The position numbers and the translations under genes are program-made. Below the pieces are notes generated by a model that did not search any database, was not told the origin of the DNA, and saw only the letters and a program-made list of their open reading frames with translations. From positions 1-44,586 of IMG/VR virus record IMGVR_UViG_3300033148_002054: 44,586 bases of DNA; one strand, 5' to 3'. Positions 1-25,742 of the stretch are shown piece by piece. Origin of the DNA: a virus. The stretch's first letter is position 1; every line of letters begins with the position of its first letter.

Positions 1-344
1 CACGTATTGATGTAATCTCGGTCTTTGCCCTTAACATTCTTCATCTTGTTAATTCGGCTCTGGACCAACTCCAGATTTTCAAATCGACTTAGTCCAAATA
101 GGCCATTGTATATCTTGAGCCACTTAACAGTCTCGCCTTTATCCCCCAGGCCAATATTCAGTATCGAATTGACCTGTGGGAGTTCGGCAATGATGTCGCT
201 ATACATCCCAAAGAATGCTGGCCCTTTAGGTTCGCCTCTTTTTGGACTAGGTTCTGGTGGAAACTTCTTTGAATTGTCCCAACACTTACTGAAGATTTGG
301 GACCTGATAAGGATTTTTTTTGCTTCTGGTAGGCTTAACGACAT
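1..344 (-). CDS. Unrecognised protein, 3' end cut by window edge
   Basis: An open frame starts at ATG 344-342 and runs off the left edge without a stop, giving about 114 residues beginning MSLSLPEAKKIL. A GGAG ribosome binding site lies 7 bases upstream of the ATG. The start lies inside the 3' end of the UDP-GlcNAc 2-epimerase gene, with 59 bases of overlap, as is common in this operon. The visible part is mixed and soluble, with a Pro/Lys-rich stretch near residues 27-38 and a segment around LNIGLGDKGETVKWLK. That segment is faintly like the glycine motif of a SAM-dependent methyltransferase, but I cannot assign a family. Its position as the last visible gene of the sugar operon suggests a role in glycan modification, which is inference only. 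A plus-strand reading over the same bases looks like a shadow. Confidence 0.7.
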   Translation of the reverse strand, partial: MSLSLPEAKKILIRSQIFSKCWDNSKKFPPEPSPKRGEPKGPAFFGMYSDIIAELPQVNSILNIGLGDKGETVKWLKIYNGLFGLSRFENLELVQSRINKMKNVKGKDRDYINT

Positions 345-1494
345 TGAAATGCTCCAATATGAATGAGTCAAATCCAACTATAGGGCACCCGATTTCCACC
401 CTATCAAAGTATCTCCGCTTTCCATCAAGACGCTCAACGAGATTCTTGACAATGCGACTTGAACTCTTACCGTCTCCTAGAGAGAAATCCTTGTTGAACG
501 AACCAGATAGCGCCAACCTTGTAGCTTCTGATATCGTGCCATGCGATGGATTACTCATAAAGGTTATGCCAGACTTAAATGTCTCTGGGCGCTCCGTAGC
601 TTCTCTTGTGACGACACACGGAGTTTTCAAAATCGCTGAAACTTCCTGGTTTGTTCCACTATCAGTATACTCGATGAGAGCATTGGCCTCAAGACGAACG
701 AATTCGAAAAAGCTCAATGGCGGGACCACCTGGAAGTGCTCTGGATATTTAATACCCAACTTCTTCAGTCGTGGCATCTCAATTAGTATTACTGGGATAC
801 CTAGTCTTTTAGTCTCTTCGCTAACCTGCCGAATGATGTTTTTGGCAACAGAAGGAGCTATCATGTGCTCGTTCCTATGAAGAGTCATTAGGGCATATTC
901 TTTAGGCTTGTATGGAAGTGGTGGAATTCCCATATACATCCAATCCAGCTTGTCCCTATGCTCATTAACAACATCGACAATTACATTGCCAACGACCTCA
1001 ATCTTAGTTGGGTCTACTCCCTCACGGATTAGATTGATTTTGTAATCAGGCTGATACACATACAGCACATCACTTACTCTATCAATCAAGACCCTATTGC
1101 GTTCTTCTGGCATCTTCCAGTTAAATGAACGCATCCCAGCTTCGATATGAGCAATCGGAATGCCCATCTTTAGTGGCGCAATGCAACCAATGGTCGCATT
1201 CGCATCTCCTAGGAACAAGCAAATGTCTGGCTGTAGCTTTTCAAATTGCTTGCCTAATTGTTCAATGAGTTTGCTATGCTGTCCGCAATGCGTATCTGCC
1301 CTAGTTTGTAACTGAATGTCTGGGCGCGGGACGCCCAACTCATCAAAGAAAACGTCACTCAAATTATAGTCATAGTGCTGACCAGTGTGAAGGAATGTAG
1401 CCTCCACGTCAGGATGCTCCTTGAGCAACCTCAAAACGATTGATGTCCTAATGAAATCTGGACGAATGCCCAGAACTACCGCAACCTTATGCAT
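286..1494 (-). CDS. wecB: UDP-N-acetylglucosamine 2-epimerase (WecB-like)
   Basis: This 402-residue protein matches the non-hydrolysing UDP-GlcNAc 2-epimerase family, which converts UDP-GlcNAc to UDP-ManNAc in the cytoplasm. Family landmarks are visible: an N-terminal VVLGIRPDFIR motif, LHTGQHYD near residue 36, LFLGDANAT and HIEAGMRSF near residue 115, the PEERNR motif, and ESGT-like YTDSGTNQEVS around residue 277 with CVVTREATERPET following. The length is slightly above the family norm of about 370-390 residues. The start ATG at 1494 has a GAGGG ribosome binding site. It lies downstream of the RmlD-like reductase in the same operon and probably supplies an activated sugar to the glycosyltransferases encoded upstream. 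The exact substrate is inferred; LGIRPD replaces the usual GTRPE, so a UDP-sugar other than GlcNAc is possible. Confidence 0.88.
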   Translation of the reverse strand: MHKVAVVLGIRPDFIRTSIVLRLLKEHPDVEATFLHTGQHYDYNLSDVFFDELGVPRPDIQLQTRADTHCGQHSKLIEQLGKQFEKLQPDICLFLGDANATIGCIAPLKMGIPIAHIEAGMRSFNWKMPEERNRVLIDRVSDVLYVYQPDYKINLIREGVDPTKIEVVGNVIVDVVNEHRDKLDWMYMGIPPLPYKPKEYALMTLHRNEHMIAPSVAKNIIRQVSEETKRLGIPVILIEMPRLKKLGIKYPEHFQVVPPLSFFEFVRLEANALIEYTDSGTNQEVSAILKTPCVVTREATERPETFKSGITFMSNPSHGTISEATRLALSGSFNKDFSLGDGKSSSRIVKNLVERLDGKRRYFDRVEIGCPIVGFDSFILEHFNVVKPTRSKKNPYQVPNLQ

Positions 1495-1501
1495 TTAACC
1501 C

Positions 1502-2350
1502 TCAAATTCGGCGCATGCTTCGTTCATATTCCGCCATTTCTTGTATCATACCTTCGAAATCTTGCGGAATAACCAAATCATTCAACCCCATCTCCGTCCT
1601 TAGAGACCTGTTGATACTAACGTCCGTCTCATGACCATTTACTTTGATATCGAACCCATACTGCTCAATGATTTCCGAAACTAACTCGAATTTCGTGACA
1701 TCAGAAGAGAATACGTGAAATAGGCTCGGCTCATACAAATCGTCAAATATGATATCAAAAATAATACGCCCCAACTCAAGTGTAGTCACTCCATTCCAAA
1801 CGTGATTCGTAAATCCGTTTATTTCCTTACCGCATTGACTCTTAAGCCATTCTAGTAGGCTGCGAGTTCTACCACCAAACTCTGGCCCAATGATGCTTGT
1901 CCGCAATACCATGCAGTCATCTGGTTCGCCCAAGCTCTTGGACTTACCATATGAGTCTAGTGCATTGTGTGCATCGCTTTCCTTGTATTCACCCCTCCAG
2001 CCGTCATAGACGCAATCTGTCGTAATGTGAATAACTCTTGTGTTTGTTAGTGTTCCCCACGTTGATAGTTGCCGTGGAAAGATAGCATTTGTATAGATGG
2101 CATTTGGAACATCTATAGGATTAGCAAACATTGGCTTGATAGCACCAATGCAATTGATAACGTAATCAACTCTAAACCCCAATAGTATAGACAACTTAGC
2201 ACCTATTTGATTCAAGGTTCTGGGCTCGACAACAAGGGCCTCTCTGCCATAAGCATTGATGTCCATGTAGGTTCCAACAGACCTTGACTTCAGCATGTAT
2301 TCAACAATGTGTCCCAACATGCCAGTGCGGCCAAGTATCGCTATCTTCAT
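1502..2350 (-). CDS. dTDP-4-dehydrorhamnose reductase-like SDR (RmlD-like)
   Basis: This 282-residue short-chain dehydrogenase has a Rossmann motif at the N terminus (ILGRTGMLG, residues 4-12). It also has VINCIGAIKP around residue 64, THITTDCVYDG-like IHITTDCVYDGWRG near residue 106, and the catalytic YGKSK near residue 134. RmlD enzymes reduce dTDP-4-keto-sugars to the deoxysugar using NAD(P)H, and this protein keeps that general architecture. The start ATG overlaps the stop of the cupin gene (ATGA), indicating translational coupling. With the RmlC-like cupin upstream and the NAD epimerase before it, the set resembles a pathway making a deoxy or epimerised nucleotide sugar. No glucose-1-phosphate thymidylyltransferase (RmlA) or clear RmlB is visible in the window, so substrate supply may come from the host or from genes to the left. 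Confidence 0.83.
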   Translation of the reverse strand: MKIAILGRTGMLGHIVEYMLKSRSVGTYMDINAYGREALVVEPRTLNQIGAKLSILLGFRVDYVINCIGAIKPMFANPIDVPNAIYTNAIFPRQLSTWGTLTNTRVIHITTDCVYDGWRGEYKESDAHNALDSYGKSKSLGEPDDCMVLRTSIIGPEFGGRTRSLLEWLKSQCGKEINGFTNHVWNGVTTLELGRIIFDIIFDDLYEPSLFHVFSSDVTKFELVSEIIEQYGFDIKVNGHETDVSINRSLRTEMGLNDLVIPQDFEGMIQEMAEYERSMRRI

Positions 2351-2796
2351 TTATTGTCAACTCCGAAGATATTGTCGATATCTGCTTCCGACAACTTCAG
2401 CCTGTGGTCATCCTTCTTTACTTCCTCAAAACTATGAGTTGAGTAAACAAGCATTCTAGTATCCTCTTCGAGAGTAACAGAACCGTTATACCATCCTGGC
2501 GGAATCCAGAATATACCAGGTTTTCTGTCGCTAAGTGTAGCAACGACCACCTTGGATGGATTATCCATTTTCATGGCAGCTAGCTTTGCAGTTCCTTTAA
2601 TGACGTGAATTCCGGTCCACCCGCTTTTGTGTCCATGCCATGCACGAATCAACCCGGAATTCCAGTTCTGAATTACGTAAGTTCTTCTGATATCAAACTG
2701 TAACTCGTGGCTACCAATGTTATCAATAGGACAGTAGACGCTTCCTCTATCATCAATATATAGCGGAAAATACGACACCTCTGGAACTCTAGTCAC
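2347..2796 (-). CDS. RmlC-like cupin, dTDP-sugar 3,5-epimerase/isomerase type
   Basis: This 149-residue cupin resembles dTDP-4-dehydrorhamnose 3,5-epimerase (RmlC) or the related sugar isomerases of the FdtA/WxcM group. Visible features are DDRGSVYCP near residue 15, LIRAWHGHKSG near residue 49 carrying the conserved Arg-x-Trp-His-Gly-His, and IFWIPPGWYNGS near residue 95, the usual cupin turn. It starts at GTG 2796 with an AGAGGTG ribosome binding site, overlapping the end of the epimerase gene. At 149 residues it is shorter than classical RmlC (about 180) and closer to the isomerase group. Its stop overlaps the start of the RmlD-like gene. The class is fairly clear; the exact sugar is not. 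Confidence 0.78.
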   Translation of the reverse strand: MTRVPEVSYFPLYIDDRGSVYCPIDNIGSHELQFDIRRTYVIQNWNSGLIRAWHGHKSGWTGIHVIKGTAKLAAMKMDNPSKVVVATLSDRKPGIFWIPPGWYNGSVTLEEDTRMLVYSTHSFEEVKKDDHRLKLSEADIDNIFGVDNK

Positions 2797-3754
2797 GAAT
2801 CACCTCTCCAGCATATTGTGCATTATGGAATCGCTTATCCCACACATCTGCAATGCGACCCTCATGCATGACCTGAATCATTTCAGAAATACCAACATGT
2901 ATTGATATATCTGCCACAAAACCATCTTGCTTTGCTTTACTATTATCAACTCTGTAGTCTCTCAAATCCTCAAACTTCATGTCGGTTTTGACGATATCAC
3001 CAATCCCAGCGCACATAATGATGCGTTCTGCTAGGTCAATAATCCTCATGTTCGACCTTGAGAGCACCCACATTCCATTAAATTCTGGCTGCACTGCCGC
3101 TTGCGCAAATATCTTACCGGCATCGCGGACATGCAATAGCGGCCTCCATTGCTCTCCACCAAAGACAGTCAACGACTTGCCCTGCATTACTCTGTATGTG
3201 AGGATGTTGGCTACGAGGTCACAGCGGATGCGGGCGTGCTCGGTGCTCATGCCAAAGAGAGTGCCAAGACGAAAGATTGCATGAGATGGGACTTTTTTAA
3301 CAGCCGCCTCTGCATTCAGCTTGGTTCCGGCGTAGATACTAAGCGGATTTGTGTCGCTCTCTTCGTCTAGAAGGTCATTATTCGCACCATACACACTGCA
3401 CGTTGATGCAAATACCATTCTGACTCCGAGCTTTGTGCATAGGCGGGCAATTCTATTTGTTGCAATTTCATTCACATTAACAGTATATGTGGGGTTGACT
3501 TGACATGCTCCATCTCCAACAATTCCTGCTAGATGGATAACAGAGGTATACTTTCCTCTTTCCATGCAGACGCGTAAGAATGTATAGTCTGTGACATCAC
3601 CTCGAATAAACTTGACACCACGGCGCATATACATTCCGCCATACATCAGGTTGTCGAAGATTGTAACATCGTGGCCAGAATTAACCAAGTATTCTGCAAC
3701 ACAATCTCCGATGTATCCTGCCCCGCCAGTTATCAATACCTTAGCCATCCGCAT
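2789..3754 (-). CDS. NAD-dependent sugar epimerase/dehydratase
   Basis: This extended short-chain dehydrogenase of about 320 residues acts on nucleotide sugars. The NAD-binding motif GGAGYIG is at residues 10-16. FDNLMYGG follows the second strand, HLAGIVGD is near residue 74, FASTCSVYG near residue 115 and the catalytic YAGTK near residue 141. These are typical of UDP-glucose 4-epimerase and related dehydratases. The start could be ATG 3754 or the second ATG at 3748; both sit behind the same AGGCGG-like sequence. It is the first enzyme gene downstream of the hairpin and promoter at 3798-3874, so it probably heads the nucleotide-sugar transcription unit with the cupin, RmlD-like and WecB-like genes. 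Which sugar it modifies cannot be read from the sequence. Confidence 0.85.
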   Translation of the reverse strand: MRMAKVLITGGAGYIGDCVAEYLVNSGHDVTIFDNLMYGGMYMRRGVKFIRGDVTDYTFLRVCMERGKYTSVIHLAGIVGDGACQVNPTYTVNVNEIATNRIARLCTKLGVRMVFASTCSVYGANNDLLDEESDTNPLSIYAGTKLNAEAAVKKVPSHAIFRLGTLFGMSTEHARIRCDLVANILTYRVMQGKSLTVFGGEQWRPLLHVRDAGKIFAQAAVQPEFNGMWVLSRSNMRIIDLAERIIMCAGIGDIVKTDMKFEDLRDYRVDNSKAKQDGFVADISIHVGISEMIQVMHEGRIADVWDKRFHNAQYAGEVIRD

Positions 3755-13382: not shown

Positions 13383-13820
13383 TCAGAATGGCAAGTCGCT
13401 GCCACCAGCGTTTGCTGGGGGAGCAGCGGGCTGACTCTGTTGAGTCTGTTGGCCTGCGTCCTGATGAGCGTCAGTTGGTCCAGCCGGGTCCTGTGGTGGA
13501 CGTTCCGCCTGGATTTCACTGGCATAAATCTTCAGCTTACTCCTCTTTTGGCCCTCCTTGGAGGTCCACTCGTCGGTCTCTAGCTGACCTCTGACCATAA
13601 CTACTGTGCCCTTCTTCACATATTGCGAAGCATAGTCGGCTCTCTGATTCCAAACCTCACAGTCGATGTATGTGGCCTTTTCTTCATAGTTACCATCACG
13701 CTTCTTGATTCTCCTATTGGAAACAAGCCTGAATGTGGTAACGCGGGATTCTCCAACGTTCTTCAACTCTGCGTCCTTAACTGAACGGCCTAGGAAACGA
13801 ACTTCATTGAGGTAAAACAT
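13383..13820 (-). CDS. ssb: Single-stranded DNA-binding protein
   Basis: This 145-residue protein is a bacterial-type SSB: an N-terminal OB fold of about 110 residues (FLGRSVKDAEL, FRLVSNRR, TYIDCEVWNQRA, VMVRGQLETDEW) and a Gln/Pro/Ala-rich flexible linker. It ends in the short acidic-hydrophobic tip SDLPF, which in SSBs recruits partner replication proteins. Start ATG 13820 has an AAGGAG site 7 bases upstream; the longer frame to 13859 has none. It has its own promoter at 13868-13895 and is followed by a hairpin, so it can be expressed separately from the polymerase genes. It would coat single strands at the fork built by the phage helicase, primase and polymerase III. Confidence 0.93.
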   Translation of the reverse strand: MFYLNEVRFLGRSVKDAELKNVGESRVTTFRLVSNRRIKKRDGNYEEKATYIDCEVWNQRADYASQYVKKGTVVMVRGQLETDEWTSKEGQKRSKLKIYASEIQAERPPQDPAGPTDAHQDAGQQTQQSQPAAPPANAGGSDLPF

Positions 13821-13867
13821 TACACTTCTCCTTACAAAATTGAACCAACTATGGTCCATGTGGCTTG

Positions 13868-13903: not shown

Positions 13904-15490
13904 TCAAAGGTGGTCAATTGCCCTGACCAAAAAACTGTCCCGGTCCTTCTTACCAGTAATCAACACAGGCTTGCCTTCTTCGATAATCCAGCCAATCCTG
14001 TTGTAGATACTAGAGAATACCACTACTGAATCAATCATATACGTTTCGTCAGATACGGTCAGGAAGCACATTTCGTTGTGATTCTTGTCCTTAATCCTGC
14101 GAATCTTTTCAATTACAACACCAATGCATCCATCAGTCTTATTACTAAGCCTGCCCATATTCTTGAGCTTAATGTTTACTCTTGGGTTGTAGTGTAGGTC
14201 TACTAGGCTTCCAGATAGTGGAATACCGAGATAATACTTTTCCCACGCAATGCACATCTTCTTTGGTGTGCCACCAAGTTCACGAGCAACCTCTCCAATC
14301 GCTTCTCTGATTCTTGGCTTACGTGACTTATTTGGAACCTTTGAATCCATCAGGTTGTTCAAGGCTTCATTCAATGTTAGGTCCTCGTCTAGCTGCTTGA
14401 ACATGTATTCACGCTCACGCTTAGTCAAAATACCAAACACCTTATACCATGACAACAGTCTAACCCTATGTGGCGTCATGTAGTCTAGCGCACCAGATTT
14501 AATTAGTGCAATGACAACTCCCTTGTTTACTTTAGTTCCTTCACCAAATGCTTTTCTAAGAAAGTCCACATCTCCAGTGGCATCGGCAATCTTTGCCAAC
14601 GCCTTTAATGCACTCTTGCCAACCCCCTTGATATGACCAAGGCCGAAGGCAATCGTAGCTCTATCAACAATATCGAAATCATGGTTGAGTTTCTTAAGGC
14701 ATGGAGGCTGAACATCAATGTTGAACAGCCTAGCCTCATACACAAGCTCTTGGATTTCCTCCAAAGAGTCCTGCTTACTATCAGAGTTCGTCAACATTGC
14801 CTTGAAGAACTGTAGCGGATAGTGACACTTGGCATATGCGGTCTTGTAACCAATCATTGCGTATGAAACGCCATGTGATTTATTAAAGCCATAGCCACTA
14901 AACTTGGAAATCCACCCGAAGATAGTCTCTGCAATCACTGGGTCGTGTCCCCTAGCAGCAGCCCCCTCCATGAAGTTTTTCTTTACCTTCTCCATCACGT
15001 CGGCCTTTTTCTTACCGACAGCTTTACGTGCCACATCAGCTTCTTTCAGCGTAAACCCTGCAAAGTCCGTGCAGATACGCATGATTTGTTCCTGATAAAT
15101 CGGCACCCCATTTGTGTCTCTGAAGATTGGCTCTAGCACTGGATGGATATATTCCGGCTCCCATGTGCCATTACGAACTTTGATGTAGGTGTGGGTGATA
15201 GATGAGAATTCACCAGGTTTGTCTGGCTTCTCTCGATACTCTGCCTCAAGACATCCTGGCCTGATGAGCGACACAACGTCACTTAGTTCCTCAATATCCC
15301 TTGGCTTCACTTCCTTAGCATACCTCTTTCCGAGGTTTCCTTCAAGCTGGAAAACTCCCTTTGTGAGCCCTGTGCTTATTAAGTCCCAGGTTCGCTCATC
15401 GTCGAGAGGAATATTCGAGAAATCCAGCTTCGTCTTCTTTGCCTTGATGGCCAGTATTTTCTCTCTTCTCTCTTCTGCTTCAGTTTTCAT
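13904..15490 (-). CDS. dnaE: DNA polymerase III alpha, C-terminal half (split DnaE)
   Basis: This 528-residue protein is the second half of a bacterial replicative DNA polymerase. After a short basic leader it picks up at SNIPLDDERTWDL, equivalent to the IPLDD segment of E. coli DnaE. It continues through GVFQLEG, SLIRPG, VPIYQEQIMRI, ARKAVGKKKA, SGYGFNKSHGVSYA and GYKTAYAKCHYP: the rest of the palm and the fingers. A helix-hairpin-helix-like FGLGHIKGVGKSALKAL (near residue 282) and a C-terminal OB fold (about 430-528) follow. The catalytic aspartates are in the other half (17531-19327), so it must pair with that protein. Its ATG overlaps the thymidine kinase stop (ATGA). No intein residues are seen. 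A sliding-clamp-binding motif is not obvious. Confidence 0.92.
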   Translation of the reverse strand: MKTEAEERREKILAIKAKKTKLDFSNIPLDDERTWDLISTGLTKGVFQLEGNLGKRYAKEVKPRDIEELSDVVSLIRPGCLEAEYREKPDKPGEFSSITHTYIKVRNGTWEPEYIHPVLEPIFRDTNGVPIYQEQIMRICTDFAGFTLKEADVARKAVGKKKADVMEKVKKNFMEGAAARGHDPVIAETIFGWISKFSGYGFNKSHGVSYAMIGYKTAYAKCHYPLQFFKAMLTNSDSKQDSLEEIQELVYEARLFNIDVQPPCLKKLNHDFDIVDRATIAFGLGHIKGVGKSALKALAKIADATGDVDFLRKAFGEGTKVNKGVVIALIKSGALDYMTPHRVRLLSWYKVFGILTKREREYMFKQLDEDLTLNEALNNLMDSKVPNKSRKPRIREAIGEVARELGGTPKKMCIAWEKYYLGIPLSGSLVDLHYNPRVNIKLKNMGRLSNKTDGCIGVVIEKIRRIKDKNHNEMCFLTVSDETYMIDSVVVFSSIYNRIGWIIEEGKPVLITGKKDRDSFLVRAIDHL

Positions 15491-16047
15491 CTATCTTGCT
15501 CCCAACACTTAAAGCACCTTGGTTCATATAGCTCTGCGCCACCAACGGCAACCTGCTCTGTGCTTCCATCTTTTCTAAATGTTCTTGTTGCCGCATGGAG
15601 TGTTTTGCACTCAGCACACACAGCCTTGAGATTTATTACGCTATCTGCTACTGCTAGGAGAAAAGGCATGGCGCCAAATGGTCTGCCTTCTGAATCCTGG
15701 GATAGTCCTGCGCAAATTACCTCATATCCCCACGAGGTAACCATCTTGGATACAAGCGGCTCAAAACGGTCTTGATTAAGAAATTGCGCCTCATCAAAGA
15801 TAACTACGTCTACTGGCTGTAGCTTCAGAACAACATCCATGCACTTCTGCGGGTTGTCTTTATCTACAATAAACGCCGGGAATTGATGTTTGTCGTGCGT
15901 AAGAATGACTCCATCAGACTCATACCTACTGTCGTTTGATGGCTTGAAACCAACAACCATCTTGCCCGCAACAACATTAGCAAGAGCCAAAGCAATCAGC
16001 CTAGAAGTCTTACCGGCGAACATTGGCCCATTGATAACGGTCAGCAT
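15487..16047 (-). CDS. tdk: Thymidine kinase
   Basis: This 186-residue protein is a type II thymidine kinase, phosphorylating thymidine with ATP. It has the P loop GPMFAGKT at residues 7-14, VIFDEAQFLNQD near residue 83 (Walker B and lasso region), GLSQDSEGRPFGAMP near residue 114, and the structural zinc site formed by CAEC (near 142) and CFKC (near 178). Length is standard. An AGGAGAG site precedes ATG 16047. It lies in the five-gene cassette between the two polymerase halves and complements dUTPase and ThyX in raising the dTTP pool. Confidence 0.95.
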   Translation of the reverse strand: MLTVINGPMFAGKTSRLIALALANVVAGKMVVGFKPSNDSRYESDGVILTHDKHQFPAFIVDKDNPQKCMDVVLKLQPVDVVIFDEAQFLNQDRFEPLVSKMVTSWGYEVICAGLSQDSEGRPFGAMPFLLAVADSVINLKAVCAECKTLHAATRTFRKDGSTEQVAVGGAELYEPRCFKCWEQDR

Positions 16048-16048
16048 A

Positions 16049-16264
16049 CTACTCTCCTAGTTCTTTCCCATACGTCTTCTTGAACCAACTGCCAACCCTA
16101 ACCTTCGGGATGCCGAATACTGCACCTGGAGCTATGATTCTTCTACAGAGACCAGTGCATGTTGGGTCTTCACAGTTATATAGAATCTTCGCATCATGCG
16201 ACATTGGTAGGACTATGCTGTATTTGTTCTCACATGTCTTGCATTTGTATACATAGTTAGGCAT
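16049..16264 (-). CDS. FmdB-like small zinc ribbon protein
   Basis: This 71-residue protein begins MPNYVYKCKTCENKYSI, the pattern of FmdB/CxxC-type regulatory zinc ribbons, with a second cysteine group CEDPTCTGLC near residue 31. The C-terminal part (GIPKVRVGSWFKKTYGKELGE) is basic and aromatic, as in phage homologues of this family. ATG 16264 overlaps the end of the preceding gene and has a GAGGTG site. FmdB-like proteins are often proposed as transcription regulators, but the function is not established. Here it sits within the nucleotide metabolism cassette. Confidence 0.72.
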   Translation of the reverse strand: MPNYVYKCKTCENKYSIVLPMSHDAKILYNCEDPTCTGLCRRIIAPGAVFGIPKVRVGSWFKKTYGKELGE

Positions 16265-16736
16265 CTAGCACCTCTATGCTATATGCAACGTTATCACTAA
16301 CAATCTTATCAACACCAACAAGTGCAAGAGAGAACTTCTTCTTATCTCCACCCATCTTAACTGTTACGTTTGATGGCTCAAGAATATATGTCCGCAAACT
16401 ATCAATCATAAATCGGTAGATTTTCCTTGAGGTTCCATCTGGAACTACATAGTAAACCTCGTTTGCCTTAGTCCCAAGCATCCCGGTGAGCTTCTTTCCA
16501 TTAGATAGCTCAAAGCAGAGGTTGCCTGTCTTCTCGGCCATGACATCAAACTTCACTTCAATATCCACAGGCTCACTGTCAAATCCATTTGGATATGACC
16601 GAATGTCTCCGTGCTCTTGCTCCTTCTTTCCCTCAAGTTCATGACACGAAATGTCGTTGTCTATGAGGTAATTCATCACAAGTTCAACTGCTTCTTGTGA
16701 CATCGCCAAGTCTCTTTTGAATGAATAGTGCGCCAT
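16257..16736 (-). CDS. Putative PD-(D/E)XK-type nuclease
   Basis: I do not recognise the family with certainty. This 159-residue protein has an N-terminal helix followed by EPVDIEVKFDVMAEKTGNLCFEL near residue 55-78. The E/D-I-E-V-K strand followed by a basic/TGN helix region resembles the core of small PD-(D/E)XK nucleases and Holliday junction resolvases of phages, where D...ExK bind metal. The C-terminal half is beta-rich. Position among replication genes fits a repair or recombination nuclease. The alternative is an unrelated phage protein of unknown function. ATG 16736 has AAGGA close upstream. Confidence 0.5.
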   Translation of the reverse strand: MAHYSFKRDLAMSQEAVELVMNYLIDNDISCHELEGKKEQEHGDIRSYPNGFDSEPVDIEVKFDVMAEKTGNLCFELSNGKKLTGMLGTKANEVYYVVPDGTSRKIYRFMIDSLRTYILEPSNVTVKMGGDKKKFSLALVGVDKIVSDNVAYSIEVLDA

Positions 16737-16747
16737 GATTCCTTACC

Positions 16748-17050
16748 TTACTTATATTCCGGCAAATTCGATACTATGTCTGGATTACATTCAGCCAGTT
16801 TCTTTTCATCATCTATTATTGCCAGCAACGCAATTGATAGTGCGGCGTTCTGCAATAGTCTTTTTCTCAACTCAACAATAGCATGCGGATTGTCTGGGTC
16901 TATGTCGTCTATCTTCTGCACACGCTTACGGAACATGCGGCGCCATTCATCAAGTCCCCATTCACCATTACTCTCACCCCACAAGAAATCTTGCACGATT
17001 CTTGCCGATTTGATGACATTGAAAATAAGGATGTCTTCACCGTCTTTCAT
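16748..17050 (-). CDS. Hypothetical protein of 100 residues
   Basis: No family recognised. The protein is acidic and mostly helical, with a Trp-rich part (FLWGESNGEWGLDEWRRMF) near residues 22-42 and a hydrophobic helix NAALSIALLAIIDD near residue 68. The start at ATG 17050 overlaps the dUTPase stop as TGATG, indicating coupling; a one-codon longer GTG start is possible. It lies in the cassette between the polymerase halves, next to dUTPase and the nuclease-like gene, so a role in nucleotide or DNA metabolism is plausible but unsupported. Confidence 0.6.
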   Translation of the reverse strand: MKDGEDILIFNVIKSARIVQDFLWGESNGEWGLDEWRRMFRKRVQKIDDIDPDNPHAIVELRKRLLQNAALSIALLAIIDDEKKLAECNPDIVSNLPEYK

Positions 17051-17547
17051 CACAAACTTCCAGTGCTGCCAAATCCACCATCTCCACGAATCGTTGCATC
17101 AAGGTCATCCACTGCTGCGAACATTGCTTGAGGAGCCTTCTTTAGAACAAACTGAGCAATTCGTTCATTTGCTGCAATTGCGTATGGCTTATCTGTGTTG
17201 TTGTGCAACAGAACCATACATGGCCCACGATACCCTGAATCAATTGTGCCAGGGGAATTAGCAACAACAATGCCGCGCTTTGCTAGTCCACTTCTAGAGC
17301 GAACTTGGACTTCCCAGCCTTCTGGGATTGCCATGCGGAATCCAAGAGACAACATGCGAGTGCCGCCTGGCTCAAGAAAGTATCCATGCTTCTCCACAAC
17401 AACCGACTCACCACTTGACCGACCAGTGTGGCGCCCATGCTCGGACATCGGATTAGGAATAACTCTAACATCTGCGCCAGCATCCCCACTGTGCTTATAT
17501 TCTGGAAGACTTCCACCCTCCAGCTTTACCTTAACTAGTGCTACCAT
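17050..17547 (-). CDS. dut: dUTPase (deoxyuridine triphosphatase)
   Basis: This 165-residue trimeric dUTPase-type enzyme hydrolyses dUTP to dUMP and pyrophosphate, keeping uracil out of DNA and feeding dTMP synthesis by ThyX. The five family motifs are present: SGDAGADVR (near residue 20), LGFRMAIPEGW, RSRSGLAKRG (near 83), GTIDSGYRGPCMVLL (near 99, with the uracil pocket and catalytic Asp), and the C-terminal RGDGGFGSTG. There is an insert after motif 1 (residues 30-50) compared with short phage dUTPases. ATG 17547 has GGAGG six bases upstream and lies inside the 3' end of the polymerase N-terminal gene. Confidence 0.95.
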   Translation of the reverse strand: MVALVKVKLEGGSLPEYKHSGDAGADVRVIPNPMSEHGRHTGRSSGESVVVEKHGYFLEPGGTRMLSLGFRMAIPEGWEVQVRSRSGLAKRGIVVANSPGTIDSGYRGPCMVLLHNNTDKPYAIAANERIAQFVLKKAPQAMFAAVDDLDATIRGDGGFGSTGSL

Positions 17548-19327
17548 TTATTTCCTCCTCCATATCCCCAAGAACATCCATTGTCTTGAGTCCCAAAACA
17601 TCCATCTTGACATAGCCCATGTTATCAAGGGTTTCGCCATCATACTCAGTAATCTTTACCTTGTCCTTAGTGTCCCAGCGTAGCGGAACACCACCATTCT
17701 CAAATGGCTCATCAGAGATGATTAGGCCAGCGGCGTGCTTGCCTCGACTCTTCTGGCAACCCTGTAGTTTTTTCGCAATCTCGAATAGCTTCGGATGCTT
17801 CTTCTCGTATTCCTGTAGTCTCTCAGAGTCCTTTAGTGCTGCTTCAATGGTCTTTGCCTTGAGACCAACTAAACGTGTCATAACGTTGGCGTCATCAAAG
17901 CTCATGCCTCGCTTACCAAGCACTTTAGCTACATCCTTTAAGACGGCCTTGGGCATCAATCGGTTGAACGTTACCATTTGCGCAACTCTATCTTCACCGA
18001 ATCTGTCACGAATATAGTTGATGACCTTCCCGCGATTCCTCTTTGAGAAGTCCATGTCGATATCAGCGAGAGAACCCTTACGGCCAGCATTGTAGAACCT
18101 TTCCCAGATTAAACCAAACTTAATCGGCTCAATCTCAGTAATGTTCAAGCAATAAGACACCAGAGAGCCAGCAGCGCTACCTCTGCCTGGTCCCACCGAA
18201 ATCCCCTCACTGCGAGCCCAACTAACAATGTCCCAAACAATGAGGAAATAGTCGGCCAGCCCCGCGTCCTTGATATCTGCCATTTCCTTGGCGATGCGAG
18301 CCTGATATATTTCTGACGCATCTCCCAGTCTATGTCCGAATTCAGTTTCATATCCATCCTCTACTAGTTTCTCCAGATATTGGAATGAATCGAAGCGAAG
18401 GTCTGGAACAAATGCATACTTAGGTAGATGCATCTTCTTCTCAATCTTTACGTCTCCAATTCTATCTACAACTTCGAGTGTTGCCTCAAGCTCAGACTGA
18501 AGCAGACTGCTCATCCTTTGCTCGTTGTTTTCTGTAGTTAGGTGCTCTCCAAGAATGTGAACACCATCCTTCATCCAATACTCTCTAGTGGAGTAGTATG
18601 GACGAAACCCACGGCCTTTTCCGTATCCAATTGGGGTATCGAACGTATGGCCAGTCCTGATTGCCCAGATGCCCTCGTGAGCCTCAACATCATCTCTGTC
18701 GATGTAGTGGGAATCAACAGTGCCTACACACTTCATCTGCATCTTGCGGGCCATCAGCCGCAAAGCCTGGTTTACCTCTGGCTGAATATCCAGCCCTCCA
18801 TCCTGAACTTCTAGGTAGAGTCTGTCACCGAAGATTCCACGCAACAGCAGGAGATTCTTCATGGCCTCGTCAAAGTCCTTCTCTGCGAGATTCCACGGCA
18901 CAATTCCCTTGAGGCAGCCAGTCAAACAGATGATGCCATTTGAATGGAGCACAAGGTCTTTGTAGTCAATGCGCGGCACGTAGTAGAACTTCTCGTTAGC
19001 CTTAGTAGTGAGTTTTTTGATATTTATCCAGCCCTCGGGGTTCATCGCTAGGAGAACTAGGTGGTGGGCGAGCCTTTTCTTGTCGGCTCGTGATTGCTCT
19101 GCGTCGGCAACCATGTAGAACTCAGATGCGAAGATTGGCTTAATTCCCTGCTTAGTGCATTCTGCATAAAACTCAGGAACACCGGCAATCGTTCCGTGGT
19201 CAGTAAGCGCAACTGCTTTGTGACCAAACTCAATTGCTCGCTTAACAATCTGAGGAATCTTGGCAATAGCATCCAGTTCACTATAAGTGCTGTGGACGTG
19301 GAGGTGGGCCATTTCAACTTTTTTCAT
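17531..19327 (-). CDS. dnaE: DNA polymerase III alpha, N-terminal half (PHP and palm)
   Basis: This 598-residue protein is the first half of a DnaE-type polymerase. Residues 7-220 form a PHP domain with intact metal-site motifs HLHVHSTYS, LTDHGT and DSHYIDRDD, so PHP nuclease or phosphatase activity may be kept. The palm begins around 290; GPGRGSAAGS is at 379-388, and the catalytic aspartates are D424 and D426 (DIDMD) and D576 (VKMDVLGL), equivalent to D401, D403 and D555 in E. coli. The protein stops 22 residues later at a natural linker, and the rest of the polymerase is encoded at 13904-15490. Both halves would add to 1126 residues, close to the usual 1100-1160. The reading is clean on both sides, so this is a gene split and not an indel. 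Confidence 0.93.
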   Translation of the reverse strand: MKKVEMAHLHVHSTYSELDAIAKIPQIVKRAIEFGHKAVALTDHGTIAGVPEFYAECTKQGIKPIFASEFYMVADAEQSRADKKRLAHHLVLLAMNPEGWINIKKLTTKANEKFYYVPRIDYKDLVLHSNGIICLTGCLKGIVPWNLAEKDFDEAMKNLLLLRGIFGDRLYLEVQDGGLDIQPEVNQALRLMARKMQMKCVGTVDSHYIDRDDVEAHEGIWAIRTGHTFDTPIGYGKGRGFRPYYSTREYWMKDGVHILGEHLTTENNEQRMSSLLQSELEATLEVVDRIGDVKIEKKMHLPKYAFVPDLRFDSFQYLEKLVEDGYETEFGHRLGDASEIYQARIAKEMADIKDAGLADYFLIVWDIVSWARSEGISVGPGRGSAAGSLVSYCLNITEIEPIKFGLIWERFYNAGRKGSLADIDMDFSKRNRGKVINYIRDRFGEDRVAQMVTFNRLMPKAVLKDVAKVLGKRGMSFDDANVMTRLVGLKAKTIEAALKDSERLQEYEKKHPKLFEIAKKLQGCQKSRGKHAAGLIISDEPFENGGVPLRWDTKDKVKITEYDGETLDNMGYVKMDVLGLKTMDVLGDMEEEINGSTS

Positions 19328-19550
19328 TCTTCAACACCTTAAATCTTACTTCTATCTCTGAGTCATCCAGAAATAGAGGCTCTGTGTGCCATGCTGGAGT
19401 ATCTATACAATTGGCATAGGTTACGCCAACCAGCTTAAACCCATTGATTATGCGCCTAGCTGAATTGGCGTAAACACAAATGCCTTGCCATTCATTCGTC
19501 AGTTTGAACACATACCTCGGGTTCGTATTCACCGCCTCTGTGGATTTCAT
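19314..19550 (-). CDS. Hypothetical protein of 78 residues
   Basis: No family recognised. This short, mainly beta protein (TNPRYVFKL, GICVYANSARRI, IEVRFKVLKN) starts at ATG 19550 behind a GGGGG stretch and overlaps the nuclease gene upstream by 59 bases and the polymerase gene downstream by 14. Its compact strand-rich composition and position in a continuous gene series suggest it is real. The long overlap lowers certainty. Confidence 0.5.
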   Translation of the reverse strand: MKSTEAVNTNPRYVFKLTNEWQGICVYANSARRIINGFKLVGVTYANCIDTPAWHTEPLFLDDSEIEVRFKVLKNEKS

Positions 19551-20586
19551 TGTGCCCCCTGCAAGCGTAGGTCATTTTGTCTACATTGCTCATTGTCACA
19601 AGCTCTGGATTTTCTACCCGAAGGCCACCGTGGCATGGGTTCTTGTCTCCCTCCATCCTACATGAGATAATAGGCAGACGGAATTCTCTGTCAACGGTGA
19701 ATTTATTACGAATCTGGCCACACACGTCCCACCCAATGCAATAGTTGCAGAGCCAACTCTTTACTCTTGCTGGGTTTACGTTTTGTATGATTTGTCTCCA
19801 GTTGTTCTTGAGACTTTTAACGGTCAGTTCGTTCATCTCCGCTGTGATTGGAACGGTGACTGGACCTTTGCGCAAAAACCACAAGGTGACCAGAACGTAT
19901 TTATATTGAGGAAACAACTGGGAGATAATCTTTCCATACAGCCTGACTTGTGGGTCCTTGTAGGCTGCTGCATAGCTCATTGAGCGGCCTGTCTTGTAGT
20001 CCACAACCTCAACCGTATCGGAGTCTTCCTCTACTGCTAGGTCAAGGAAGGCCCGTAGCGGGATTCCCTCGATTTGTCCGTTGAAGTTCAACTCTACGCC
20101 AAGCATCTTCTTCTTGAAGTTGCCGTCTTTGTCACGCTTGAGCACGGGATAATCACGAGACTTAATGGCTCCCTCAATGAGCGCCAGGTCGTCCTCATAA
20201 TTGATACGTGGGCAGCCATCAACAACTTCTGATGGAATTGACAGAATAGAACAGGTCCTATCCTTTGTCATGTGTTGGCAAAGTTCACAATTCTTCATCT
20301 GAGGATATGGGTCGCCACGTTCGGGCTTGCGGTCATCTAGGAGCCATACGCGATGCTCTACGTAATAATCACGTAGTGTCTTTACGTAATCAATCTCAGC
20401 ATTTTCATCCTTGCCCAGAACTGCATTCACCCACTGTTCAAGTGCCTCGTGAACAACAGAACCCTTGTGGGTATAGATGTTTCCCTTCCTGGTCTCTGGA
20501 ATCTTCAGATGATACTCAAGAAAGTATTTCATCTCGCATTGCTTATTGGTCTTGATTCTAGACGCACTTGCTGCTGACATATCCAT
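19492..20586 (-). CDS. Cas4/AddB-like Fe-S PD-(D/E)XK nuclease
   Basis: This 364-residue protein has the RecB-nuclease core: GSVVHEALEQWV near residue 42 supplies the motif I histidine, RAFLDLAVEE near residue 178 the metal aspartate, and VEVVDYKTGRS near residue 193 the D-x-K motif. The cysteine pattern, one Cys near residue 17 (KQCEM) and a C-terminal C-x2-C-x5-C (CNYC...VCG near residue 290), is that of the 4Fe-4S cluster of Cas4 and AddB. Extra cysteines occur near 98-110 (CELC...C). Such enzymes process DNA ends in recombination. It lies between ThyX and the polymerase genes. AGGAG lies about 10 bases before ATG 20586. Confidence 0.82.
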   Translation of the reverse strand: MDMSAASASRIKTNKQCEMKYFLEYHLKIPETRKGNIYTHKGSVVHEALEQWVNAVLGKDENAEIDYVKTLRDYYVEHRVWLLDDRKPERGDPYPQMKNCELCQHMTKDRTCSILSIPSEVVDGCPRINYEDDLALIEGAIKSRDYPVLKRDKDGNFKKKMLGVELNFNGQIEGIPLRAFLDLAVEEDSDTVEVVDYKTGRSMSYAAAYKDPQVRLYGKIISQLFPQYKYVLVTLWFLRKGPVTVPITAEMNELTVKSLKNNWRQIIQNVNPARVKSWLCNYCIGWDVCGQIRNKFTVDREFRLPIISCRMEGDKNPCHGGLRVENPELVTMSNVDKMTYACRGHNEIHRGGEYEPEVCVQTDE

Positions 20587-25318: not shown

Positions 25319-25347
25319 ATGATTGGCTGTGGACCTAGAGGAGTCAA
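25319..25347 (-). promoter_or_regulatory. Possible weak sigma70-type promoter
   Basis: TTGACT (25347-25342), a 17-base spacer and AATCAT (25324-25319) lie in the small gap upstream of the 126-residue gene. The -35 box has five of six matches, the -10 box only four. It could give extra transcription of the helicase and primase genes. Confidence 0.25.
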
Positions 25348-25742
25348 GGGAGCTTGTTTATTATGTTTTCTGTGCTCTCGCCCCAGTCGATTTCTACGAG
25401 TGTGATTTTGTTTATTTTGCACCACTCAGCCTTCCGCTTGTCTCTTGATTGAGAGGCTCTGAACGCGGCCTTGTCGTTATGGAAGAATGGGTTGAACGAA
25501 TGATGCTGGTCACCCTGCACCTCTATTGCGAGGAGTCTTCTAGGGAGAAAGAAATCTAGCGACAATCCTTCTCCCTTACAGGGAAACTCTTCTAAAATGA
25601 TGTCGGTCGGATATGTTTCATCGAGGATTTCACCAACCTCGCTTTGAAACAGTCCCCGACCTTCACCGACCGCTTTGCGCGGCCACCTTGATGGGCGAAC
25701 ATCTATCTTGTGTTCGCGGCCTTTTGTATCAACGAACTTCAC
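25344..25742 (-). CDS. Vsr/DUF559-like PD-(D/E)XK endonuclease
   Basis: This 132-residue protein has the layout of very-short-patch-repair and DUF559-type endonucleases. SLDFFLPRRLLAIEVQGDQHH near residues 68-88 has the metal Asp, the E-x-Q/K strand and a His pair. RDKRKAEWCKIN near residue 108 is the helix with basic and aromatic residues, and ITLVEIDW is the next strand. It starts at GTG 25742, one base after the RecA stop region. Family members cut or process DNA in repair or as free homing-type nucleases. With RecA upstream it may act in recombination-dependent replication. Specificity is unknown. Confidence 0.7.
   Translation of the reverse strand: MKFVDTKGREHKIDVRPSRWPRKAVGEGRGLFQSEVGEILDETYPTDIILEEFPCKGEGLSLDFFLPRRLLAIEVQGDQHHSFNPFFHNDKAAFRASQSRDKRKAEWCKINKITLVEIDWGESTENIINKLP

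Follow-up and report, generated by a model that had tools for sequence, protein, structure and literature searches.

How is a replicative DNA polymerase, normally a tightly integrated single-chain enzyme, made when its sequence is divided between two genes? The question is raised by IMG/VR virus record IMGVR_UViG_3300033148_002054, analyzed here over its whole length of 44,586 nt (the window). An earlier note on this DNA described a DnaE-type DNA polymerase III (Pol III) alpha subunit encoded by two complete genes of 598 and 528 residues, and both open reading frames (ORFs) were found as stated; they are here called polN and polC. The five genes said to lie between them were also recovered, namely a dUTPase, a 101-aa ORF, a 159-aa ORF (c3), a zinc ribbon and a thymidine kinase. 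Other surveyed loci are referred to by L-numbers.

Division of the polymerase between two genes

Pfam profiles PHP and DNA_pol3_alpha matched polN, while DNA_pol3_finger and HHH_6 matched polC. The OB domain of polC is indicated by a sub-threshold match to tRNA_anti-codon (24.7 bits against a cut-off of 27), by C-terminal beta strands in the structural model and by weak Foldseek matches to OB folds. The window thus holds the features of a C-family polymerase, with PHP followed by a Pol beta-type palm bearing three catalytic aspartates, and with fingers and HhH present, but not in a single chain, there being two ORFs with five genes between. All three catalytic aspartates (D424, D426 and D576) were confirmed in polN, and the IPLDD segment, near which the second half had been said to restart, begins at polC residue 27.

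Against PHROG 405, a profile of phage DNA polymerases with 1190 positions, polN covers positions 40-616 and polC 618-1081, so the two meet without overlap. In comparisons with the Protein Data Bank (PDB), residues 5-573 of E. coli alpha were aligned by polN and residues 581-900 by polC. These alignments place the break in the linker after the third catalytic aspartate, at the palm/fingers junction (E. coli alpha residues ~573-581), and not within the palm as the earlier note had it. The domain borders of E. coli alpha used for this placement we take to be those of the 2006 structures.

AlphaFold2 models of each half were built separately from alignments of split relatives. Both reached a predicted local distance difference test (pLDDT) score of 89.5, with predicted template modelling (pTM) scores of 0.89 for polN and 0.83 for polC. 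Foldseek matched each half to its own part of Pol III alpha from Thermus aquaticus, Mycobacterium tuberculosis (Mtb) and E. coli, with template modelling (TM) scores to DnaE-type Pol III alpha of 0.82-0.87 for polN and about 0.5-0.7 for polC. Measured against a 93%-identical relative (L002), the ratio of non-synonymous to synonymous substitution rates (dN/dS) was 0.042 for polN and 0.051 for polC, at a dS of about 1. These ratios are the lowest in the block except for that of a sigma factor, a value based on nearly saturated dS. Both genes are under strong purifying selection. The non-functional remnant that the earlier note had considered among close relatives was not seen, both halves being constrained and the catalytic residues retained; a pseudogene reading was rejected on the dN/dS of 0.04-0.05 in both halves. 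Successive genes from polN to polC are spaced by -17 to +11 nt, and because they overlap or abut, the block is probably translationally coupled.

Split and fused dnaE among relatives

Scans of IMG/VR gave more than 150 loci, with certain contigs counted more than once, and these were sorted into four states by ORF classification. As the earlier note had proposed, related phages were searched for fused and split dnaE and for endonucleases in the gap; both forms were found, and endonucleases are present in some gaps. The arrangement of the window is repeated in a 100%-identical IMG/VR contig, in a 93%-identical one and in eight more, and this repetition excludes chance and an assembly error. Within the window clade, every one of the ten IMG/VR contigs is split, with both halves present and c3 in the gap. 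Among the window and the eight relatives whose neighbouring genes were examined, dUTPase and zinc ribbon are found in all and thymidine kinase in all but one. A second group, the DnaQ clade, comprises 121 loci (not deduplicated) in which the break falls at the same linker and the gap holds a DnaQ-like DEDD exonuclease (e.g. L012 5015-5710). Smaller split lineages are L017/L194, which carry c3, L099, and phiT1/L030. In the cultured Rossellomorea phage phiT1 (PV767480) DnaE is annotated as gp20 and gp18, broken at the same linker; a 49-aa ORF alone separates the halves in phiT1 and about 250 bp in L030. No near-identical named phage was present in the phage collection.

The window-clade sequences all come from uncultured virus contigs, as might be held in favour of an assembly or sequencing artefact. 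Ten clade contigs together with phiT1, an isolate of another clade, rule out such an error as well as chance, leaving an artefact with practically no probability. Nor was a reading error joining the halves, which the earlier note had allowed for, encountered in the clade contigs or in phiT1.

Fused dnaE genes in L015, L016 and L019 occupy the syntenic slot of the split forms, in the order DnaB - DnaG - Cas4-like exonuclease - dnaE - single-strand binding protein (SSB) and/or glycosyltransferase. The fused open frame of L016 has 1127 aa, compared with 598+528 in the window. The two window ORFs therefore equal one ORF of fused relatives with DNA inserted between, which is the genes-in-pieces arrangement. 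In a control set of cellular dnaE, 78 of 80 were fused, one was incomplete and one was split (L327, from a metagenome-assembled genome (MAG), with overlapping ORFs and no insert). Matches in GTDB genomes were distant (28-38% identity) and nearly all to fused dnaE.

In the tree, the window clade (7 loci) and the DnaQ clade (18 representatives) each sit on one fully supported branch, while phiT1 and L030 form a separate pair. Approximately unbiased (AU) tests were run on a 32-row set under LG+G4, with groups named after the tree was seen, and one clade of all splits was rejected (p = 2e-5). Because of that rejection, the split arose at least twice, or once with repeated loss by fusion. Rather than a peculiarity of this phage, the split is old and widespread, and the same break in more than 100 related phage loci, with its recurrent origin, looks like a stable two-chain enzyme and not a broken gene.

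Splicing elements and genes in the gap

No intein motif or splice residue was found at the polN end or polC start of the window or of seventeen other split loci inspected, and no Rfam intron matched in the window, L004, L010, L101, L012 or L174. Relatives differ freely in how polN ends and polC begins. The earlier note, seeing no intein residues at the break, had concluded that the halves associate without splicing, and its conclusion is supported: with two genuine genes and no intein found there, they would have to do so.

Inteins are found elsewhere in DnaE. In split cyanobacterial DnaE, each half bears part of an intein, the break being at the FNK site of the fingers. Complete in-frame inteins occur in close relatives, within polN between GPGRG and SAAG of the palm (L004, L095) and within polC between FNK and SH (L004, L101), the latter site being the cyanobacterial DnaE intein region. 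They show Intein_splicing plus LAGLIDADG or HNH matches, some below the Pfam cut-off, and the intein-bearing halves lie at L004 2027-5200 and 7221-9689, L095 676-3954 and L101 5965-8355. Since these inteins must splice out of each half, their presence suggests that each half is expressed and needed. Given the inteins at these two sites, dnaE is a preferred target of self-splicing elements; the palm/fingers break is an event separate from the intein invasions.

In two more distant loci (L006 7959-11746 and L007 7977-12668) intein halves apparently divide DnaE at the FNK site, as read by eye, and in L007 a 324-aa putative endonuclease lies between the halves, resembling published fractured genes. 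In Alicyclobacillus phage KKP_3916 (L180) dnaE is apparently spread over at least 4 ORFs and interrupted near three points (the DIDMD motif, the palm/fingers linker and the FNK site), for which introns or inteins are possible explanations.

Features of the locus are collected in Table 1. The slot of the 101-aa gene differs among close relatives, being empty in L002 and holding a 69-aa ORF in L004 and a MazG-like ORF (by eye) in L010. The invariant residues of c3 form a pattern typical of PD-(D/E)XK nucleases. In all listed cases where c3 is linked to dnaE, it is found between the two halves, and no other gene was recognised in the gap of L194. Unlinked relatives of c3 occur in other phages, next to genes of replication or recombination, e.g. 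at L205 3832-4284, between a family A polymerase (PolA) gene and endonuclease VII. A tree of c3 grouped the dnaE-linked copies apart from the unlinked ones with weak support (68), for which reason it is not proof that c3 was the original invader; c3 may be that invader, a resolvase or an accessory nuclease. Homing-type genes were recognised in the gaps of relatives: a GIY-YIG + NUMOD3 gene directly overlaps the polN end in L010, a LAGLIDADG_3 gene lies in the gap of L101, and an Endonuclease_7 gene overlaps the polC start in L012. Gap ORFs of L037 and L050 appear HNH-like by eye, although a scan of L050 gave no HNH match. The nucleotide cassette does not define the split, because its place is taken in other split relatives by a tiny ORF, by a DnaQ exonuclease or by a PD-(D/E)XK-like gene on its own. 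The earlier suggestion, that nucleotide enzymes may have been selected for expression together with the polymerase, accounts at most for the cargo of the window clade.

Table 1. Positions of the polymerase genes, the genes between them and conserved neighbours in the window
Feature	Position	Strand	Description
polN	17531..19327	(-)	598 aa; PHP + palm/thumb of DnaE-type Pol III alpha; all 9 PHP metal ligands; catalytic D424, D426, D576
dUTPase	17050..17547	(-)	165 aa; starts 17 nt inside polN 3' end, behind GGAGGA ribosome-binding site; Pfam, PHROG
101-aa ORF, GTG start	16748..17053	(-)	No function assigned; variable slot
c3, PD-(D/E)XK-like nuclease	16257..16736	(-)	159 aa; invariant D44, E60-x-K62; recurs in the gap of other split lineages
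FmdB-like zinc ribbon	16049..16264	(-)	71 aa; Pfam Zn_ribbon_8, below cut-off; conserved in window clade
Thymidine kinase	15487..16047	(-)	186 aa; Pfam, PHROG
polC	13904..15490	(-)	528 aa; fingers, HhH, OB of DnaE-type Pol III alpha; start overlaps thymidine kinase stop by 4 nt
SSB	13383..13859	(-)	Conserved neighbour downstream of polC or fused dnaE
PD-(D/E)XK (Cas4/RecB-like) exonuclease	19492..20586	(-)	Conserved neighbour upstream of polN or fused dnaE

Elsewhere in the window, an HNH/homing endonuclease gene lies at 25344-25742, between RecA and the DnaB region, and similar HNH genes are found near DnaB in L015, L016, L018, L019 and L042. A sugar-nucleotide cassette at 286-3754 contains UDP-GlcNAc 2-epimerase, RmlD-like, FdtA-like and NAD-dependent epimerase genes.

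The clades also differ in their equipment for proofreading. The PHP exonuclease of Mtb DnaE1 has nine metal ligands (PMC5636811), and the window clade, matched by motif, keeps all nine equivalent positions. Neither the window record nor five clade records, which are possibly incomplete, yielded DnaQ (PF00929). With nine ligands kept and no DnaQ found in the clade records, PHP probably supplies proofreading in the window enzyme. Among the DnaQ-clade loci inspected, those whose PHP is recognisable carry His in place of Cys at one ligand, and the 26 loci with fewer than 5 PHP ligands all carry DnaQ in the gap, which suggests that proofreading passed from PHP to DnaQ. A beta-clamp gene (PF00712) was not found in the four records searched.

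Origin of the split and comparable systems

To account for the split and for the conservation, constraint, folds, recurrence and synteny with fused relatives revealed by computation, we infer with good confidence that the two chains assemble non-covalently, without splicing, into one active C-family replicase, and that the division is an old genes-in-pieces split, probably made by insertion of a nuclease or homing endonuclease gene. Chain 1 (PHP, palm, thumb and the three catalytic aspartates) and chain 2 (fingers, HhH and OB) would be produced from one packed block and would associate across the palm/fingers junction to give one active enzyme. A nuclease or homing endonuclease gene would have been inserted among the linker codons of a dnaE that was then still fused, with both halves remaining functional, and the gap would then have gained and exchanged cargo genes, in the window the dUTPase, PD-(D/E)XK-like, zinc ribbon and thymidine kinase genes. 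Invasion of the linker by such genes is the likely origin of the split.

Several points weigh against this account. No homing endonuclease was recognised among the five gap genes of the window, so that the earlier suggestion of a mobile element in the gap stands for relatives (L010, L101 and L012) and not for the window itself. The window copy of c3 had no Pfam, PHROG or PDB match and is PD-(D/E)XK-like by motif only; its role could be that of a resolvase or of an accessory in replication. Endonucleases might also have entered a gene that was already split, as was noted as possible for phage 25 (PMC2988022). Moreover, joining the window and DnaQ clades into one split clade was not rejected (AU p 0.198 and 0.346), and a shared position of c3 in the two would be consistent with one origin.

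The most serious competitor leaves the two-chain enzyme in place and concerns its origin alone: a simple frameshift or stop would have arisen at a permissive linker, where ribosomes gained a new start, and nucleases and cargo would have arrived later. As it contests only that part of our account, the confidences in the two overlap. Such an origin is suggested by the near-empty gaps of phiT1 and L030, by the overlap-type break without insert in the MAG dnaE of L327, and by repeated splits at one linker, as expected if the linker tolerates breaks. The recurrence of nuclease or endonuclease genes in the gaps of several lineages, and c3 alone separating the halves in L194, argue the other way, and we rate it a substantial possibility that falls somewhat short of even chances.

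Far less credit is due to the readings that deny a two-chain enzyme. That one half is decaying, or that the proteins act apart, with polN serving as a PHP exonuclease alongside a polymerase of the host or another one of the phage, is very unlikely in view of the equal, strong purifying selection on both halves, the retained catalytic residues, the presence of both halves in every clade member and the in-frame inteins retained in both. Joining of the halves into one polypeptide by a split intein or trans-splicing intron has precedents close by, in the intein-like halves read by eye at the FNK break of L006 and L007 and in the inteins elsewhere within the halves of close relatives; the absence of intein motifs, splice residues and Rfam introns at the loci inspected, with freely variable polN ends and polC starts, makes it more improbable still.

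A bolder extension of the non-covalent account, which we regard as speculative and rather unlikely, is that a large phage group has an obligately two-subunit C-family replicase whose gap is a standing site for polymerase-partner enzymes, the products physically partnering the split enzyme: DnaQ where PHP has changed or decayed, and PD-(D/E)XK-like nuclease and dNTP enzymes elsewhere.

Comparable divisions are known in other phage enzymes. The split T4-type family B polymerase (PolB) gp43A/gp43B of Aeromonas phages 25 and 44RR co-purifies and is active, and split NrdA of phage Aeh1 is active as two chains (PMC2988022). Like the window polymerase, these are essential phage replication enzymes in two genes with other DNA between; their halves assemble without splicing and homing endonucleases lie at or near the break, whereas for the window assembly is our proposal and the endonucleases are those of relatives. 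They differ in being a family B polymerase or a ribonucleotide reductase of few phages, while the present type belongs to family C, is old and occurs widely, and has genes for metabolism or proofreading in its gap. In group 2.2 jumbo phages, which also have a family B polymerase, a minimal Pol III alpha is encoded by two genes at a distance from each other (Iyer et al. 2021, PMC7824862). There too the catalytic module resides in two stand-alone phage proteins, proposed to reconstitute (PMC7824862), but that minimal core is without other Pol III domains and its genes are far apart, whereas in the window PHP and HhH are present, OB is likely and the genes form one block. The gp20/gp18 pair of phiT1 shows the same linker broken in a cultured phage, by the tree an independent split.

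Cyanobacterial DnaE is likewise in two genes, divided by the DnaE split intein (Caspi 2003, cited by PMC3919608). Its halves are ligated by that intein, while the window break lies about 200 residues upstream and is without one; the cyanobacterial site is occupied by a whole intein in L004 and L101. Fractured genes with split inteins (Dassa 2009, from its citation in PMC6892783) and PolB of phage MIJ3 (PMC6892783) also have an endonuclease gene between the parts of an interrupted gene. Their parts are joined by a split intein; L007 looks like that type and the window does not. The accessible part of a bacterial survey (PMC3919608) mentions intein-split and fragmented genes and no such natural DnaE split. 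Genes-in-pieces is thus already known for T4-type gp43, while for a full DnaE no description was found in the papers searched; no report of a PHP-to-OB DnaE as two intein-free genes emerged from a literature search with many subscription papers outside it.

The split has persisted through deep divergence and shows a natural place at which to divide Pol III alpha when a conditional form is wanted. The pairing of a gap-encoded DnaQ with a changed or decayed PHP, set against an intact PHP without DnaQ, makes the evolution of C-family proofreading testable. Fused and split forms in one syntenic slot make it possible to study how the products of gene fission become permanent subunits.

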